Of a stretch of DNA of 32,021 nt, positions 1-29,271 are shown one piece after another. The stretch covers positions 1-32,021 of the forward strand of contig CAJAIK010000075.1 in NCBI GenBank assembly GCA_903939765.1, read 5' to 3'. Below the pieces are notes generated by a model, which did no database searches, was not told where the DNA came from, and was given only the letters and a program-made list of their open reading frames with translations. Source of the stretch: an uncultured Chlorobiaceae bacterium. GTDB taxonomy: Bacteria > Bacteroidota > Chlorobiia > Chlorobiales > Chlorobiaceae. Positions within the stretch are counted from its first letter, which is position 1, and the number at the start of each line of letters is the position of its first letter. The translations under genes were made by a program, and so were the position numbers.

Positions 1-1240
1 AGCTGCCGTAGCCGCTCACCTGCGCGACCTGACCGAGTCCTTCGAGGTTGCCGGTCGAGCGGTCAAGGGTGTCGTTCTCATGGCCAAGCGCATCTTCGTA
101 GACCATCGCCGTCACCGCCGCAGGGGCGTTGCCGCCACTCAGGTTCAGCGTGGGGACGTCGTTTTCGACCGTGATGGTAAAGCTCCCCTTGACCGTAACC
201 GGGGTACCGCCACTGTCCGTTGCTACCAGAGCACTGGAAAGATCAAGGGTCAGAACGGCATTGTCGCCACTTCCGTCAGGATGATCGACCTGGTCCCTCA
301 GAATAAAGGTATAATTTGAGCCATCCAGCTTCAGCGTAAAAACAGACCGGTCGGGAGAGCCGGGAACATACCCTTCCAACACTCCACCAACAAGCCGGTA
401 AAGGACAGGTTCGCCTTGTGATGTCACGGGGAACCCTTCTGACGTTACAACAGAAGGGCCGGGAACCTGCAAACTGAAGGATATCGGCAGAGGCCCAGAG
501 GAAACAAGAGAAGCAACAGGGCCCGATGCTTTCACCGTTTTGTCACCTTCTCCCAAACTGTTTCCGCCCGGCAGTGCATCTTCCTGCACCGCACCCGTCA
601 CTGGCACGATTACTGACGGAACGAAAGTCGGCTGTAACGGCTGAGCCTCCCCCAGCACGATGGGTAGCTGCTCCGGCAACGGCTCCACATAAGCAGTTGC
701 CATCGGTTCAAGCGGCAGAGCGATACGCTCATCGACTGTCGCTCTTCCTTCAAAAAAAGGATCGAAATTTGCCGAACGGAGTTGAGTCTCCGGATTATAC
801 CTACCCGTAAACGACCAATACTCGTATACCGGTGTGGTTACTGATTCGTTAATACGTTCTACATTAAGAAATCCATGCAGGGTCTGAGGGCCGGTAGCAT
901 TACCTGGAGAAAGAGTGAGTGGAACGGCAGACGCTGCTGGCGCGTCGGGCACACCGTCCGTTGCGGCTATCAATCCCCTCAAATCGAGCGTAAAGGTATT
1001 TTCACCACCGTCAAAAAGCCCGTCAGCAAGGGCAACCTCCTTGCCTTCAGTAACCTTCAGATCAGCGCCATTTGCATTCCGAAGCACAACAGTACTTCCG
1101 GTTTCCGTAAGAATAACTTCACCTTCATAGACCGCATCCCCAACCTCGAGGATATGCCTGGTCCCATCTCCAGCCACGGCCCATACTTTCCCTGTAATAT
1201 CAGCGACAGTAGCTAACGGAGTACTAGTATTGGTACTCAT
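1..1240 (-). CDS. N-terminal part of a giant retention-module adhesin (type I secreted), runs off left edge
   Basis: I translated the minus strand from the ATG at 1240 and found 413 codons without a stop, continuing past base 1. Residues 11-75 look like a LapA-type retention module (a beta-rich FecR-like fold; ITGKVWAV, LEVGDAVYEGEVI, TGSTVVLRN, LKVTEGKEVAL). There is no Sec signal peptide, as expected for type I secretion. A Pro/Glu-rich linker follows (about 95-215). Residues about 215-360 resemble a T1SS-143 adhesin repeat (VLTLDL, FTITVENDVPTL), and a second repeat appears to begin near residue 380 (VYEDAL). In the family, such proteins are held in the outer membrane by the retention module and released by a LapG-type protease; PAAS at residues 101-104 is a candidate cleavage site. 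The T1SS exporter genes are not in view. No clear ribosome binding site precedes the ATG. Full length cannot be judged. The plus-strand open frames here are shadows. Confidence 0.83.
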   Translation of the reverse strand, partial: MSTNTSTPLATVADITGKVWAVAGDGTRHILEVGDAVYEGEVILTETGSTVVLRNANGADLKVTEGKEVALADGLFDGGENTFTLDLRGLIAATDGVPDAPAASAVPLTLSPGNATGPQTLHGFLNVERINESVTTPVYEYWSFTGRYNPETQLRSANFDPFFEGRATVDERIALPLEPMATAYVEPLPEQLPIVLGEAQPLQPTFVPSVIVPVTGAVQEDALPGGNSLGEGDKTVKASGPVASLVSSGPLPISFSLQVPGPSVVTSEGFPVTSQGEPVLYRLVGGVLEGYVPGSPDRSVFTLKLDGSNYTFILRDQVDHPDGSGDNAVLTLDLSSALVATDSGGTPVTVKGSFTITVENDVPTLNLSGGNAPAAVTAMVYEDALGHENDTLDRSTGNLEGLGQVAQVSGYGS

Positions 1241-1287
1241 TTGAAGAATGGCTATAATTAAACTTCGAAAAAGTGGCTCATCACTCA

Positions 1288-1299
1288 GGTGGTACTACC
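1288..1299. promoter_or_regulatory. Near-palindrome in the divergent adhesin/elbB intergenic region
   Basis: The 195-bp AT-rich gap between the divergent adhesin and elbB starts contains GGTGGTACTACC, a dyad of GGT/ACC arms around a central GTAC with one mismatched pair. It sits about 48 bp upstream of the adhesin ATG and could be an operator. I could not identify convincing -35/-10 pairs for either gene. The assignment rests on symmetry and position only. Confidence 0.2.
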
Positions 1300-1435
1300 A
1301 TCCAAAACAAAAAGGGGCAACAACGTATATAGCCTAATGTATATAATCTTGAAATGAATATACAATTTTCATATCACCCCGCAATGAGCACAGCTAAATA
1401 ACAAACTACATTAGCAATAATACGCAATTAATCCA

Positions 1436-11586: not shown

Positions 11587-12171
11587 TCACAGACGAAGAA
11601 AATGCTTCTCCACCGAAACGAGTTCAACACCGGTAGCCACCGCACCATGCCCCGGCGCACCGGCAACCGCCAAAAGCACATCAGGAGAGATGGTCACTTC
11701 AACGCCCTGCATGATACTCTCAAAAAAAACCACCAGCCGCGACTCCCTACCCTGCTTGATTACAACACCCTCAAAATCCTTGAACGGCCCGGCAAGAACC
11801 TTCACCCTCTGGCCCGGAGGAAGAGAATCAACCGTCCGGTGAACCGCATCCGGCTCCCTTACCAACTGCTTGAGCCAGTCAATATCACGCTGAGCAATCA
11901 CCGAAGGCGTTTTACCAATCCCGATAAACTTCACCACACCCTCCGTATCGAGCACCGCAATCTTCTCCCGCTGTAACGCAATATTGACAAACAGATACCC
12001 CCGAAACAGGGGTTCAGAGACCTTTTTCTTCCTGTCGCTCCACTGCTTCCAGGTATCAAGCAGCGGCAGAAAACTCACAACACTCTGCTCAAGCAGCAGT
12101 TGATGCGCCCGCTTTTCATACCGGGAGCGGACATAAAGCGCATACCACTTCAAATCATCAACATCAGTCAT
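11587..12171 (-). CDS. NusG-like transcription antiterminator (UpxY/RfaH family)
   Basis: The 194-residue protein has an N-terminal NGN domain (about 8-110; KWYALYVRSRYEKRA, LFRGYLFVNI, FIGIGKTPSVI) and a C-terminal KOW motif (PGQRVKVLAGPFKDFEGVV, about 128-147). This is the architecture of specialised NusG paralogues that help RNA polymerase read through long polysaccharide operons (UpxY in Bacteroides, RfaH in enterobacteria). Housekeeping nusG normally sits with secE and ribosomal protein genes, whereas this copy sits at the end of a surface-glycan cluster, so the specialised role is favoured. It lies 123 bp downstream of the YdcF-like gene. Such regulators are often first in their operon; here it appears to be near the end of the run. 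Confidence 0.86.
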   Translation of the reverse strand: MTDVDDLKWYALYVRSRYEKRAHQLLLEQSVVSFLPLLDTWKQWSDRKKKVSEPLFRGYLFVNIALQREKIAVLDTEGVVKFIGIGKTPSVIAQRDIDWLKQLVREPDAVHRTVDSLPPGQRVKVLAGPFKDFEGVVIKQGRESRLVVFFESIMQGVEVTISPDVLLAVAGAPGHGAVATGVELVSVEKHFLRL

Positions 12172-16813: not shown

Positions 16814-18295
16814 TTACTGTTTTGAAAAGTAGCCACCGGTTTTTGGTGAGCCAATGAACTCTATTTTACCAGCTTCCCGCAGTTGCTTAAGCCTGCGCTC
16901 TATGGTTCTCTGTGTTACCTTGAAAGTTGCGGCCATGTCACTTGCCCTATGACCCGGATTAGCCTGAATGTCTGCGAAAAGAGCATTTACTCCGACATTT
17001 ACTCCGACATTTACTCCGACATTTACTCCCTTCCCCACTCCGCCTCGCTGCTCTTGCAGTTTAAAAGTCATCAAAACACTGCCGGTATTTTCATGCAGCA
17101 CAGGCACTGGCAAGCCAGCAGACTGCATTAAACTGGCAATTTTAAGCGTTCCCCGCCCCCATGTTTCAATCAATCCACGACGGTAAAATACCCTGGCAAT
17201 CCAAGGGTTCCAAGGTTTTGATTCATGGGGCTGGTAAAGCATATCTGGGGTTAAACCAAAATGGAGTTCACCTGGGGAGATGATTTCCAGACGGTCGTCA
17301 TACAAGGCAACCGCAACAGAACCCGCTGCGCTGGTATAATCACGATGAATAAACGCGTTGGCAAGTGCTTCACGCACCGCTTCGGTGGGCAGGGCTGGCG
17401 TGTCGATACGCGCCATTTTGCCCGGCACGATTTTACTGGCTACCGGTAGCCAATCAATCAAAAAGCGTTCGGCCCGGCGCATAAGTGCAAAGGCGTTGCC
17501 GGTGTATTGCCGATTATCAAGAAACTCGTCCCGTGTGGTGCCTTTGAAACGGGCTACACGAAGATTAAATTGCGGGAATTCTGGCAAGGCAAGTTCATCT
17601 TTACAAAACAAGGCGACGGCGGCACGCGATAGTTGTTCGCCGTTCACCAGCAGGCCCAAGCCACGCAATACTGCCAAGGTATCGCGGGTACCGGGGTCAA
17701 CGCTGCGGCCGCGTCGAATGGATTCTTCAAGGGTAACAACAATTTCGCGGCTATCAAGATCATCCACACTGCACCCGAAGGCAGGCTGCATTTCCCAGCG
17801 GTCAGTGGTGTGCATAGACTCAATCAACAGCCGTTGGTAATTGACACGGGGCATGACACGCGTTGTGTTCAGCACTCGCTCGTAAGGTATTCCGCGAAAA
17901 GAAACGGGAGCGTATGCGACACGATCGACCTGAACAATCAAAACTTCCAATCCACGACCATCCCCTTCAGAGAGTGGTATACGCTGGAGTTGCACGGATA
18001 GTGGTGGCTCGAAACCCTGAAACTCCTGTGCCAGTTCTTCCATTGTTCGATCAGTCACTTTTTGACCGACCACTTTACCAAACGGAGTTACACCAAACAC
18101 CACTTGCCCACCTTGGCCATTAGCCAGAGCACACATACTGCGACAAGCACGCTCTTTCTCAGCCGTAGACTTTTTGAGCTCAAGCGTTTGAGATTCGCCT
18201 GCTGCAATGCTTTTTTGAAGTTCAGTAAAGTTCAATATGACAATTGTTTCTGACAGAGCTGGATTACTGTCAATAATCCTTTTCACCCTTTCCAT
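16814..18295 (-). CDS. AlbA_2 / RecG-like ATP-binding transcriptional-regulator-type protein (COG2865)
   Basis: The 493-residue protein has an N-terminal AlbA_2 (Schlafen-like) domain (about 25-150; GESQTLELKKS, ALANGQGGQVVFGV). The central and C-terminal GHKL-type region contains PTEAVREALANAFIHRDY, VALYDDRLEIISPGEL, FYRRGLIETWGRGTLKI. A C-terminal winged helix follows (RASDMAATFKVTQRTIERRLKQLREAGKIEFIG). Family members are often mislabelled ATP-dependent DNA helicase RecG although they lack helicase motifs; they are thought to be DNA-binding regulators, often on mobile or defence-type islands. A GVN-type tandem repeat lies in the linker before the winged helix. The gene lies between fcl and a PD-(D/E)XK gene and has no obvious role in glycan synthesis. 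The start is uncertain: the AlbA_2 match begins only about residue 23. Confidence 0.8.
   Translation of the reverse strand: MERVKRIIDSNPALSETIVILNFTELQKSIAAGESQTLELKKSTAEKERACRSMCALANGQGGQVVFGVTPFGKVVGQKVTDRTMEELAQEFQGFEPPLSVQLQRIPLSEGDGRGLEVLIVQVDRVAYAPVSFRGIPYERVLNTTRVMPRVNYQRLLIESMHTTDRWEMQPAFGCSVDDLDSREIVVTLEESIRRGRSVDPGTRDTLAVLRGLGLLVNGEQLSRAAVALFCKDELALPEFPQFNLRVARFKGTTRDEFLDNRQYTGNAFALMRRAERFLIDWLPVASKIVPGKMARIDTPALPTEAVREALANAFIHRDYTSAAGSVAVALYDDRLEIISPGELHFGLTPDMLYQPHESKPWNPWIARVFYRRGLIETWGRGTLKIASLMQSAGLPVPVLHENTGSVLMTFKLQEQRGGVGKGVNVGVNVGVNVGVNALFADIQANPGHRASDMAATFKVTQRTIERRLKQLREAGKIEFIGSPKTGGYFSKQ
16984..17030. repeat. 12-bp tandem repeat inside the AlbA_2 gene
   Basis: CATTTACTCCGA occurs three times in a row plus an 11-base partial fourth copy. 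On the coding (minus) strand it encodes alternating GVNV units in the linker between the ATP-binding part and the winged helix. The unit is a multiple of three, so copy-number change would lengthen the linker without a frameshift. Confidence 0.92.
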
Positions 18296-18398
18296 TATCG
18301 TAAACCCTTCTCCCTAAAAAAACAACTTTTGTATGAAGAAAGCTTTTGGTCATTAATATAACCCCCTTTCCTCCCATCAAACCTGATAAAATCTAACG

Positions 18399-19916
18399 TT
18401 ACAGCGTCTCAACCTCAAACTTGCTGACGTTTCTTTGTTTGGGGTCGAAGACAATGCCAATCAGATATCGTTCGCCGCTGTATTTCTCGTAGTATTTCAT
18501 CTTCCTGATCTGCTCAAGCGGTTCCCCATCGCTAACCTTGAATTCAAAGAGAAAGGTTTGCCCCCCGATCTTCAGGGTCAAATCTATTCTCCCCTTGTTG
18601 CTCACATCTTCGGCGATGATGTCCACCCCGAAGCTGGCAAAAAAAGCATAGAGTACGCTGGCGTAAAAGCCTTCGTAACGCTCAATATCATTGTTTGTGA
18701 AATTATTGTAGGCGATACTGGCAAAAAGTCGCCGGATGACGGGTTCCAGACCTCCAACATCTCCGGCCTCAAGAAGATCAAGCAGCTCATTGCGGATCAG
18801 CTCTTTTTGTGAACCGCTGATCATCGATTGCAAAATATACTCGTGGAAACTGATTTGCACCTCCATGTTCGGAAACCCCAACTCGTATCGAACTCCCCTG
18901 CCCGATTGTATCAAGCGATTGATGGTCAAATAGCCAGTCTGGAACAGGATGGCCTCCAGATCAAGATTTTCAATGTCAAAACTATTAACCAAACTCTTGT
19001 CAACGTTGATATTCAAAAAATCAGGGATAAAATATCTGTTTTTTTTGATCAACTCAACCAAAAAACGCGGCGTACCGGTCTCAAACCAGTAATTATCGAA
19101 CACACAATGGTTCTTGATAAAGAGCAGGATATCAAACGGATTATAGACCTTTTCACCCAAAAAGTTATACCCGTTGTACCACCGTTTAACCTGCTCCATA
19201 TCCACCCCTTCGAGATAAGGGGAAAAAGTGGTGTCGAGGTCAAGCTGGGTATAACCGCAGACATTGCCAAAGTCAGGGTTCAGGCTGATGTCTTCGAGAT
19301 TGTTCAGGCCGCTGAAGAGCGAGACCTTTGAGAATTTGCTCACTCCGGTAAGAAAGGCAAAGCGCAGATACCGGTCGTTCTCCTTGATTTTGGTATAAAA
19401 GTCACGCATTCCATCCCGGATAACCAGAGCCTCGGGAATGTTCTCAATATTGTCGAGAATCGGCTTGTCATACTCATCAATCAGGATAACCACCTTCTGA
19501 TGATATTTCTCATAGGCTTTCTCGATTAATTCTGCAAAACACTGGTTGGGATCCTCTTTTTCGTCGCAGTGAATATCAAGTCGTTTCTGATTGTCATTCA
19601 GGATATAGAAAAGATTTTTGCGAAGAGTTTCCCTACTGTGAATTCCGCCACTAAAACTGATCTTGATGACCGGATATTTCACTTCCCAGTTCCATTGATT
19701 CTCAATCAGCAGACCCCGGAACAGCTCCTGATTTCCCTCAAAAATATTGTTCAGCGTATCGAGAAACAAGCTCTTCCCGAATCGCCGGGGCCGTGACAGA
19801 AAGACATATTTGAAGTTGTCGATCAAGCTATAGGCAATCCCTGTTTTGTCGATATACAGGTAATTCTCGTTTATGATCTCGCTGAAGGTCTGTATGCCAA
19901 CTGGCAGCTTTTTCAT
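18399..19916 (-). CDS. AAA-ATPase-like / PD-(D/E)XK nuclease-like protein (DUF1703 family)
   Basis: The family N-terminus MKKLPVGIQTFSEI begins at the ATG at 19916, giving 505 residues; a longer frame to 19997 has no family match. An AAA-ATPase_like domain carries FLSRPRRFGKSLFLDTL (Walker A variant), VVILIDEYDKPILDNI (Walker B) and LTGVSKFSKVSLFSGLNNL. The C-terminus is a PD-(D/E)XK domain: GRIDLTLKIGGQTFLFEFKVSD with the Asp and Glu-Phe-Lys catalytic set, then YLIGIVF. These proteins are abundant and multi-copy in Bacteroidetes and Chlorobi, and their role is unknown; selfish, defence or genome-maintenance roles have been suggested. A 52-bp copy of part of the nuclease domain lies at 16710-16761. 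Codon use differs little from neighbouring genes by eye. Confidence 0.85.
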   Translation of the reverse strand: MKKLPVGIQTFSEIINENYLYIDKTGIAYSLIDNFKYVFLSRPRRFGKSLFLDTLNNIFEGNQELFRGLLIENQWNWEVKYPVIKISFSGGIHSRETLRKNLFYILNDNQKRLDIHCDEKEDPNQCFAELIEKAYEKYHQKVVILIDEYDKPILDNIENIPEALVIRDGMRDFYTKIKENDRYLRFAFLTGVSKFSKVSLFSGLNNLEDISLNPDFGNVCGYTQLDLDTTFSPYLEGVDMEQVKRWYNGYNFLGEKVYNPFDILLFIKNHCVFDNYWFETGTPRFLVELIKKNRYFIPDFLNINVDKSLVNSFDIENLDLEAILFQTGYLTINRLIQSGRGVRYELGFPNMEVQISFHEYILQSMISGSQKELIRNELLDLLEAGDVGGLEPVIRRLFASIAYNNFTNNDIERYEGFYASVLYAFFASFGVDIIAEDVSNKGRIDLTLKIGGQTFLFEFKVSDGEPLEQIRKMKYYEKYSGERYLIGIVFDPKQRNVSKFEVETL

Positions 19917-20236
19917 CGTCAAACTCAATTTAAACATTAGCCCATCACAGGCGTCGGCACCCCAACACGACTCCACACTTTTATTACTACACAACAAAAT
20001 ATAAAGCTTTTTTGACAGGAAAACAGAGCGCGCGATCCGCTTTAACGAATAGCTCTCAACCGACGGACACCGACGAGGCCTGCAACGATTACCAGAATTT
20101 TATGTGCACGCGATAAAGCAAGTTATTCGAGGGTTTGTTGGGTTCAGGCTACGGTAATCGGGGGCGTATGGGTGGTTGAAATGCTATAAACCGTTCATCG
20201 CAAATAAACGATTTATAATAAAAGAAAAGGCGTTTA

Positions 20237-26735: not shown

Positions 26736-27515
26736 TTAAACACAAAAATAAGTGCGTAACAGCTCATTTTTTTCAGTAGGTGTTGGATAACTTATCAACA
26801 CCGCCCTATACACCCCCTTAAACACAAACAAACTGCCTGCGGCAGCTCCAATAATGCCACATTGACGTACCAATTCACCAATGTCCTTCACAGAACCTGC
26901 TCCACCCAAAATAGTTATCGGAATATGTGCCAACAATTTGATTCGTAAAGCAAGTTCGAGGTCGTACCCTTTCATCTGGCCGTCATTGTCAATTGAATTG
27001 ACAACAATTTCACCTGCCCCAAGCTCTTGAACCTTTAAGATCATTTCAAAAAAAGTGTGTTTTGTTTTCTTTATACCATTATGAGTATAGATATCATAAT
27101 TTTTAGTCAACAGCCTTTTTTTAACGTCAAAAACAGCCACAACACTCTGACTACCAACCTCATCAGCAATTTGTGTAATCAATTCGGGAGTATCTATAAT
27201 AGCAGCACTGATAGCTACCTTTTCAACACCAAGACCTATAATTTTTTTTGCTTGCGCAGCAGTACGAACGCCACCACCATAGCATAAAGGCATCCGACAC
27301 TCAGCAGCCAAACGAGCAATCATGTTATAGTTTGGTTCTCTATTATTCGCTGTAGCATCAATGTCCAATACAATCAACTCATCCGACTCTTTTTCATTAA
27401 ATATCTTTACAGCATTGATTGGATCGCCAACATATTTAGGTGATTTAAAATTAACAGTCTTGACCAGGCCGTTATTGTGTACTAATAAGCATGGAATAAT
27501 CCTTGGTCTTAACAT
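26736..27515 (-). CDS. wbuZ: HisF-like ammonia-channel partner of an amidotransferase (WbuZ/HisF2)
   Basis: This 259-residue (beta/alpha)8 barrel is homologous to imidazole glycerol phosphate synthase subunit HisF. Motifs are RIIPCLLV, GDPINAVKIFNEKESDELIVLDIDA, YGGGVRT, VVAVFDVKK, NSIDNDGQMKGYDLELA and ILGGAGS. In true HisF the loop after strand 1 reads PCLDV with catalytic Asp11; here residue 11 is Leu, while the second Asp (in FDVKK) is kept. Loss of Asp11 fits the HisF2/WbuZ group, which is thought only to relay ammonia from its HisH partner to a sugar amidotransferase. Position supports this: it is 2 bp after the HisH-like gene and next to wbuX, with no other histidine genes nearby. Confidence 0.9.
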   Translation of the reverse strand: MLRPRIIPCLLVHNNGLVKTVNFKSPKYVGDPINAVKIFNEKESDELIVLDIDATANNREPNYNMIARLAAECRMPLCYGGGVRTAAQAKKIIGLGVEKVAISAAIIDTPELITQIADEVGSQSVVAVFDVKKRLLTKNYDIYTHNGIKKTKHTFFEMILKVQELGAGEIVVNSIDNDGQMKGYDLELALRIKLLAHIPITILGGAGSVKDIGELVRQCGIIGAAAGSLFVFKGVYRAVLISYPTPTEKNELLRTYFCV

Positions 27516-27517
27516 TC

Positions 27518-28132
27518 TTATAACTCCGCAAAGTTTTTTAGTAAACCTGTGCCGAAATGGTGGCTTTTTTCAGGATGAAATTGCACTCCATACACATTAT
27601 CAGACTGAACACAACAAGCAAAATCGATACCATAAGAAGCTTTTGCAATAATATAATTTTTATGGGTACATTCAAACAAATATGAATGAAGGAAGTAAAA
27701 TCGCGCATCTTGTTCCAAGCCCTTAAACAACCTGTGTTCACCTTCTACATGAACATCATTCCAGCCCATATGTGGTAATGGCAATTGTTCAGTACCAGCA
27801 AATGATTTAAAAGCCCTTACATGACCAGGAATCCACCCTAATCCGTGCAACACTCCTTCTTCACTTGATTCAGCAAGTATTTGCATCCCAACACAAATCC
27901 CCATTATCGGCACCTTCTTCACAAGAACTAAATGGTCAAGAACCTGACGCATGCCAGAAGCACTAAGCAACTCCATCGCGTGGTCAAAGGCACCTACTCC
28001 AGGCAAAATCAACTTTGTTGTTCCATCAAGTTCATCTGATGTCTTAGCGATTCTAACCTGTATCCCAAGACGATTGTATACATTCACAAATGCCTGAATA
28101 TTACCTAAACCGTAGTCAATAATAGCAATCAT
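27518..28132 (-). CDS. wbuY: HisH-like glutaminase subunit (WbuY/HisH2)
   Basis: This 204-residue class I glutamine amidotransferase domain has the HisH N-terminus IAIIDYGLGNIQAFVNVY and LPGVGAFDHAM. The nucleophile loop is GICVGMQIL (Cys80), and the catalytic His186/Glu188 lie in QFHPEKSH. All three catalytic residues are present, so it should release ammonia from glutamine. It overlaps wbuX by 4 bases (ATGA) and precedes the HisF-like gene by 2 bp, a tightly coupled three-gene module. By analogy with P. aeruginosa and E. coli O-antigen clusters it supplies ammonia for making an acetamidino group on a sugar rather than for histidine synthesis. Confidence 0.91.
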   Translation of the reverse strand: MIAIIDYGLGNIQAFVNVYNRLGIQVRIAKTSDELDGTTKLILPGVGAFDHAMELLSASGMRQVLDHLVLVKKVPIMGICVGMQILAESSEEGVLHGLGWIPGHVRAFKSFAGTEQLPLPHMGWNDVHVEGEHRLFKGLEQDARFYFLHSYLFECTHKNYIIAKASYGIDFACCVQSDNVYGVQFHPEKSHHFGTGLLKNFAEL

Positions 28133-29271
28133 CGAAACAACCTTTTTTCGAGTCCAAGTATGCTCATTGCCTTTGATCCGATTCCAATTAAAAATCTTTT
28201 GTTTTTGTAATCATGATACGTTTTATTTCTACCATGAAAAATCACAAGCAATTCTTCAACTGATAAATCTAACTTATGCGCAACATATTCAAACTCCTGT
28301 TTCAAAAAATGCTCATCCAGCTCAGGATTTGCAATTCGACTAAGTGCTTCATCTCTCGTCATCTGGCCAGTCATAATCAAGCTTGAAAAATGTGCACGTC
28401 GCTTTTCATAACCAAATTTTTGCGGCATCCAATAGTCTTCATAAAATCGTGTAAAGCGTGATTCATGATGCTTGTGAAGAAATGGTTCCCACCCAAAAAT
28501 ATCCGAAAGTTTTTTTTCAGCCTCACGCTTTATGTAAGGAACATAGTTCAGTGGTCTAAAAACCTCCATGCCTAATACGTACTTGTAATATATTTTATAG
28601 GTAAATATATCAACAATAGGGAAAGTTGTTAATGGTATTTTTCCAAACCTGGAATGAATATCATTAATTAACGTCTTATCAATACCTGGATATGCACCCC
28701 ACTCTTCTGGCTCACGGCAACATTCTGTAGAATAATTTCCACCAGTAAGCACGTATTTAATTTTATGTTGTCTTGCAAACTTATAAAGCATTGAAAAAAA
28801 TGCTGTATCCTGAGGTATATCCTGATCAGCTATCTGAGATTTAAGCATAGCAACCTGAAGATCCTTCATCTCTTCCCAATTGATAACCTCTGTATAAAGA
28901 TCTAGGCCAAGTCCATCAACCATTTTTTCAATATTACCAACAGCCTGGTAGGTATTCCAACCTGCATCAACATGAAACAACAAGGGTCTCAAACCCATTT
29001 TTTCTTTTACAATATACGTACAGTAAGAACTATCCAAACCACCACTAAGTCCTATGATACAATCAAAATCTCTACCATTTCCATCCTTACGAATTTTCTC
29101 TGCAATCTTCATTAATTCCGTTTCACCAACAGCTCCAGTATTCCAATTTGGATATATATTATTTTCAAAATTATTACAATATTCACACCATCCACGTTCA
29201 TCAAAAGTGATGTTTGGGTCAGATGTATCCATAATGCAATTGGCACAAATTTGGTAGGTAGACACACTCAT
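28129..29271 (-). CDS. wbuX: N-acetyl sugar amidotransferase (WbuX/LfnA/WbpG family)
   Basis: The 380-residue protein belongs to the PP-loop amidotransferase family that converts an N-acetyl group of an activated sugar into an acetamidino group. It opens with a zinc-ribbon-like pair of CxxC (Cys9/Cys12 and Cys29/Cys32). The ATP-pyrophosphatase loop IIGLSGGLDSSY follows (SGGLDSS at 76-82). Other family segments are HVDAGWNTYQAVGNIEKMV, LTGGNYSTECCREPEEWG, LNYVPYIKREAEK and HHESRFTRFYEDYWMP. LfnA (P. aeruginosa O12) and WbuX (E. coli O145) are required for L-FucNAm; WbpG acts on a different acetamido sugar. The presence of fnlABC in the same operon favours L-FucNAm here, which is an inference. 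Coupled by ATGA overlaps to genes on both sides. Confidence 0.91.
   Translation of the reverse strand: MSVSTYQICANCIMDTSDPNITFDERGWCEYCNNFENNIYPNWNTGAVGETELMKIAEKIRKDGNGRDFDCIIGLSGGLDSSYCTYIVKEKMGLRPLLFHVDAGWNTYQAVGNIEKMVDGLGLDLYTEVINWEEMKDLQVAMLKSQIADQDIPQDTAFFSMLYKFARQHKIKYVLTGGNYSTECCREPEEWGAYPGIDKTLINDIHSRFGKIPLTTFPIVDIFTYKIYYKYVLGMEVFRPLNYVPYIKREAEKKLSDIFGWEPFLHKHHESRFTRFYEDYWMPQKFGYEKRRAHFSSLIMTGQMTRDEALSRIANPELDEHFLKQEFEYVAHKLDLSVEELLVIFHGRNKTYHDYKNKRFLIGIGSKAMSILGLEKRLFR

Follow-up and report, generated by a model that had tools for sequence, protein, structure and literature searches.

The 5′ end of a probable outer-membrane-anchored, type I-secreted adhesin gene in an uncultured Chlorobiaceae bacterium

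The window analyzed here, 32,021 bases of DNA from an uncultured Chlorobiaceae bacterium, is the whole of contig C75 in a genome of 2.98 Mb, 128 contigs, and 99.4% completeness, referred to as G000. At its left end lies an open reading frame on the minus strand, 2..1240 (-), which begins with ATG and supplies the N-terminal 413 codons of an adhesin of the type I secretion system (T1SS). A sequence-only reading had described this frame and its 413 visible codons, and we find it as described, with no stop before the contig end. Because the left edge of the window is the true end of the contig, the gene has been cut by the assembly and not by the choice of window. An orthologue in another uncultured Chlorobiaceae MAG (L004) is 75% identical at the protein level across 413 aligned codons, and the differences between the two are distributed as 75/48/109 over the three codon positions; together, the orthologue and this pattern identify the ORF as a real gene whose frame is conserved. 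The nearest named relatives of the adhesin are uncultured Chlorobiaceae, in agreement with the green sulfur bacterial origin suggested from the sequence. Upstream, judging by ORF positions, a divergent intergenic region of 195 bp (1241..1435, no strand assigned) separates the adhesin from an elbB-like (DJ-1/PfpI) gene, and an Rfam search of the window returned no match. The original observation is confirmed, and the frame at 2..1240 (-) very probably begins the gene of an adhesin exported by a T1SS.

We explored the N-terminal part of this ORF with domain models, profiles, and structure prediction. The NCBIfam model of the retention module, NF033682, matched the ORF at 49.5 bits (E = 4.8 × 10−13), just below its curated cut-off of 50 bits, while TIGR03660, the model for T1SS-143 repeats, gave a single partial repeat match at 42.6 bits (E = 5.4 × 10−11), below its cut-off of 66 bits; Pfam yielded nothing above its cut-offs on the ORF. 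Since both NCBIfam scores lie under curated cut-offs, independent tests were made. A profile built from ten orthologous and paralogous N-termini, compared with PDB sequences, matched 5ix9 (E = 4.6 × 10−6), the sole other match having an E value of 0.5. A template-free AF2 model of the module reached a pLDDT of about 87 (86–91 over residues 11–60) and matched the same structure both by Foldseek (E = 2.5 × 10−5, TMt = 0.88) and by VIA (Z = 13.3, rmsd 1.9 Å over 74 of 76 residues), with the next VIA match at Z = 4.7. As judged from these profile and model comparisons, residues 6–79 (1004..1225, -) are a genuine LapA-type retention module, or periplasmic plug, as had been proposed. The structure 5ix9 is the anchoring domain of the Marinomonas primoryensis ice-binding adhesin (MpAFP/MpIBP), which, like the window adhesin, combines an N-terminal retention domain with a chain of repeats and a T1SS; the two proteins differ in repeat type and share only about 22% sequence identity, and the ligand domains of MpAFP/MpIBP are not seen in the part of the adhesin present in the window. 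Consistent with the earlier claim that a Sec-type signal is lacking, we found none: the first 12 residues contain no K or R, and Kyte-Doolittle hydropathy averaged over 12 residues peaks at about 1.1 in the N-terminal region.

Between the module and the repeats, an alignment of 17 N-termini delimits a conserved segment at residues 119–178 (707..886, -) with the consensus hGFlrVeR..ES....Y.fwSfTG.Y....R.....f.GRAT.DeRI, in which Y139, R155, G165, T168, and R172 are invariant in 17/17 sequences; for residues 84–176, no confident fold emerged from AF2. The GRAT.DeRI motif is near-invariant in all 17 of these adhesin N-termini of the genus. The first T1SS-143 repeat follows at residues 215–363 (152..598, -), where the TIGR03660 match covers 272–367. 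It is 42–49% identical to repeats in the adhesins of relatives G012 and G046, and its AF2 model is closest to split domains of RTX adhesins (Z = 8.8 to 9q5u), with V. cholerae FrhA and then MpAFP ranking next. A second repeat, recognized by sequence and alignment and starting VYEDALGHEND, occupies residues 380–413 (2..103, -) and is cut by the contig end. The window thus holds one full tandem Ig-like repeat and the start of another, with more in relatives; the model match, the relatives' repeats, and the fold uphold their description as T1SS-143-like.

Elsewhere in the genome, T1SS-143 repeats occur on contigs C61 and C71 only. The first gene on contig C71 is the 3′ part of an adhesin gene, 476 codons that encode a C-terminus. 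Downstream on the same strand come genes for TolC (470 aa), a rotamase of the PpiC type (237 aa), an ABC exporter (1,018 aa), HlyD (329 aa), and a TPR/GT41 protein; the successive gaps measure 51, 63, 62, −4, and 21 nt. The exporter is of the HlyB type (719 bits) and carries cNMP-binding and C39-like domains; the PpiC protein is similar to isomerase domains of the SurA type and may help in folding or export. This TolC-ABC-HlyD set bears out the expectation that T1SS genes would be found in the same genome. In G046, a single contig (C114) carries an ABC permease, a complete adhesin, TolC, PpiC, ABC, and HlyD genes, and the order adhesin-tolC-ppiC-abc-hlyD is conserved in relatives. Because the window carries nearby upstream the same ABC-permease gene that precedes the G046 adhesin, and because the G046 adhesin runs into TolC-PpiC-ABC-HlyD, synteny indicates that contig C75 most likely joins C71, so that the window adhesin would head the C71 operon. 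Physical linkage of adhesin and T1SS genes, observed in G046, would extend to the window adhesin through this join.

An alternative assignment would give the C71 C-terminus to the second adhesin of this genome, leaving the window gene to end elsewhere, perhaps truncated. That adhesin begins on C61 (L026, positions 1–1279) with a retention module of its own and is likewise cut by a contig end; its neighbors are VIT-like and nif-like genes, and similar loci occur in G002, G036, and G046. G000 yielded two adhesin N-termini but a single adhesin C-terminus, and the ends of C75, C61, and C71 share no overlap of at least 15 bases. However, it is the G046 orthologue of the window adhesin, beside the same permease gene, that leads directly into TolC-PpiC-ABC-HlyD, whereas C61-type adhesins have the other neighbors (VIT-like, nif) in G000 and G002 and similar ones in G046 and G036, and a single T1SS could export both adhesins. 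We therefore regard the alternative as unlikely and retain the join of C75 to C71. The C71 C-terminus, which by this join would belong to the window adhesin, is homologous to the adhesin C-termini of five relatives; T1SS C-terminal signal models gave no match on it, and canonical RTX nonapeptides (GGxGxDxux arrays) were found neither there nor in the G046 adhesin.

The G046 adhesin measures 2,477 aa as assembled and combines a retention module with T1SS-143 and VCBS repeats. Relatives' adhesins have either this length or, when two pieces are joined, a minimum of about 3,700 aa, so that the anticipation of a giant protein holds for relatives as far as a large multi-repeat protein is concerned, but none of these reaches the 20,000–36,000 aa class of Chlorobium chlorochromatii. 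A role in symbiosis, which the sequence-only reading had mentioned for some very large exoproteins of green sulfur bacteria, finds no support in the sequence. The names of HMM matches in the G012 orthologue, such as RtxA N-terminus, would suit a freely secreted T1SS repeat protein, or an RTX-type toxin or enzyme, and not an anchored adhesin. Against this, the N-terminal domain matches a solved retention domain, and no enzymatic or pore-forming domain was recognized in the complete G046 protein, which makes free secretion highly improbable and favors an anchored adhesin.

The retention module was found in 12 of 61 genomes, all in the window's genus. The PpiC marker occurs in ten of the 61, all within the retention-module set (10/12 versus 0/49 others; Fisher's test, 7 × 10−10, a figure that ignores shared ancestry), and the two retention-module genomes without it are both MAGs, one 85% and the other 81% complete.

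In Pseudomonas fluorescens (LapA/LapD/LapG/LapBCE) and in the Desulfovibrio Dvh system (PMC13090378), as here, a retention module is combined with an LssB/HlyB-type T1SS and a large repeat adhesin. The sequence-only reading had proposed a look for lapD- and lapG-like genes in the genome, but these did not turn up. LapG (Peptidase_C93, PF06035) is absent from the window genome, from 30 relatives, and from all 12 retention-module genomes, with a match in the Caulobacter control. No GGDEF protein was detected in the 99.4% complete window genome, a search in which 8 of 14 controls match and from which the absence of LapD, the GGDEF-EAL c-di-GMP receptor, is judged, the LapD_MoxY_N model having matched no control. 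In the 17 aligned N-termini, no [T/A/P]AAG cleavage site is conserved behind the module; TAAG is confined to the C61-type adhesins of G000 and G036, and the one in G046 lacks it. The motif in the C61 adhesin, PGTAAG, resembles a LapG site, yet its genome is without LapG. A classical Lap system, in which LapG held back by a c-di-GMP-sensing LapD releases the adhesin on demand, would draw on the genuine module and on the TAAG of the C61 paralogue, but the missing protease, GGDEF protein, and conserved site leave it only a very slim chance. With neither LapG nor a GGDEF protein, anchoring is probably permanent, or else ended by another, unrelated protease. Besides these three absences, the window system differs from Lap and Dvh (PMC13090378) in its extra PpiC, the cNMP domain on its exporter, and GT41. 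Genuine LapA-type modules in Chlorobiota without the known protease or c-di-GMP control bear on the role of a module that is left uncut.

We then considered the last gene of the C71 operon. The TPR/GT41 protein (L027, C71 7799–16413) comprises at least 2,871 aa and runs off the contig; contig C57 (L114, 2–1306) likely carries its continuation, with about 200 residues missing relative to the copy in G036, and shares with G036:C79 a downstream flank of isochorismatase-like and purD-like genes. The complete G036:C79 copy is 3,510 aa, and this giant TPR protein contains at least three GT41 (OGT-like) catalytic modules. Its GT41 region matches human OGT (E = 2 × 10−136) and keeps the His/Lys active-site motifs DFHDHATTHL, NNNYKI, and CNAHTT; with TPRs and a GT41 domain bearing active-site motifs, it belongs to the GT41/O-GlcNAc transferase family. 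Multi-GT41 ORFs, or cut ends at the same locus, were found in 6 of 12 retention-module genomes and in 0 of 25 other congeners, counts that ignore shared ancestry. The gene lies downstream of hlyD with a gap of 21 nt in G000 and in the same order in G010, G012, G032, and G036. The adhesin loci of G038 and of the G042/G047/G008/G004 type have no GT41. G036 also carries, away from a T1SS, a second multi-GT41 gene that encodes 2,178 aa (G036:C80).

This arrangement recalls HMW1 and HMW1C of Haemophilus influenzae, where a large adhesin is also encoded with a GT41 enzyme, which is needed for its stability and tethering (PMC3983070). That system differs in using two-partner secretion, in an AAD fold that replaces the TPRs in HMW1C, and in attaching N-linked hexoses. 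By analogy with HMW1C, the likeliest role of the GT41 enzyme, at about even odds, would be to glycosylate the adhesin while it is still in the cytoplasm. More tentatively, at somewhat under even odds, the adhesin might be O-glycosylated by this co-operonic OGT-like enzyme of ~3,500 residues and then permanently plugged in TolC without LapG or c-di-GMP. A competing and quite conceivable explanation, which we nonetheless rate below an even bet, is that the giant GT41 protein is an accidental neighbor modifying other cytoplasmic proteins: single-GT41 genes occur in adhesin-free genomes, the second G036 gene is remote from a T1SS, and several adhesin loci have no GT41. The shared operon and its conserved order, the confinement of multi-GT41 ORFs to retention-module genomes, and the HMW1C precedent argue instead for a connection with the adhesin. 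A full-text search of the literature collection consulted returned no earlier report of GT41 with T1SS adhesins, nor of a cNMP/PPIase T1SS, a result that does not prove their absence. The linkage offers a testable case for large T1SS adhesins having a cytoplasmic glycosyltransferase of their own, as two-partner adhesins do.

Taken together, the window ORF very probably encodes the start of a repeat adhesin that is exported by a T1SS and anchored in the outer membrane, a judgment that does not extend to glycosylation. In the mechanism we propose, the operon's GT41 enzyme would add sugars to the adhesin in the cytoplasm. Following the established Lap/MpIBP model, the adhesin would then leave through an ABC-HlyD-TolC channel with its C-terminus leading, and its chain of Ig/cadherin-like T1SS-143 repeats would reach outside the cell. 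The retention module would fold in the periplasm and, being too bulky for TolC, would keep the adhesin threaded in the channel; given the absence of LapG and GGDEF proteins, this plug would be constitutive or removed by an unrelated protease.

Adhesin operons of this type have already been described in green sulfur bacteria, and the window gene is otherwise an ordinary adhesin. As far as the portions of the sources consulted go, Prosthecochloris has RtxA/adhesin-TolC-ABC-HlyD clusters with T1SS-143 repeats that are likewise broken at contig ends (PMC7762298), and the Chlorobium chlorochromatii adhesins Cag_0614 and Cag_0616 have 36,805 and 20,646 aa (PMC4053972), far larger than the relatives of the window system. 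These clusters (PMC7762298, PMC4053972) resemble the window's in their T1SS-143 repeats and TolC-ABC-HlyD order, and the same portions describe for them neither a retention module, nor the absence of LapG, nor a GT41 neighbor. What is distinctive here is that a true retention module comes without the Lap switch and that a giant GT41 gene shares the operon. In many draft genomes of the genus, contigs end within the repeats, and such genes are consequently under-reported.

The remainder of the window includes a polysaccharide gene block with several features of separate note in or beside it, all on the minus strand. A NusG paralogue at 11587–12171 (-) lies beside genes for sugar nucleotides and polysaccharides, where RfaH/UpxY-like antiterminators are typically encoded. 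Schlafen/AlbA_2-type and AAA-ATPase_like/PDDEXK_9 proteins are encoded at 16814–19997 (-), inserted within the polysaccharide block, and HisF-like, glutamine amidotransferase-like, and Asn_synthase-like genes in the same block (26736–29271, -) possibly serve sugar amidation.
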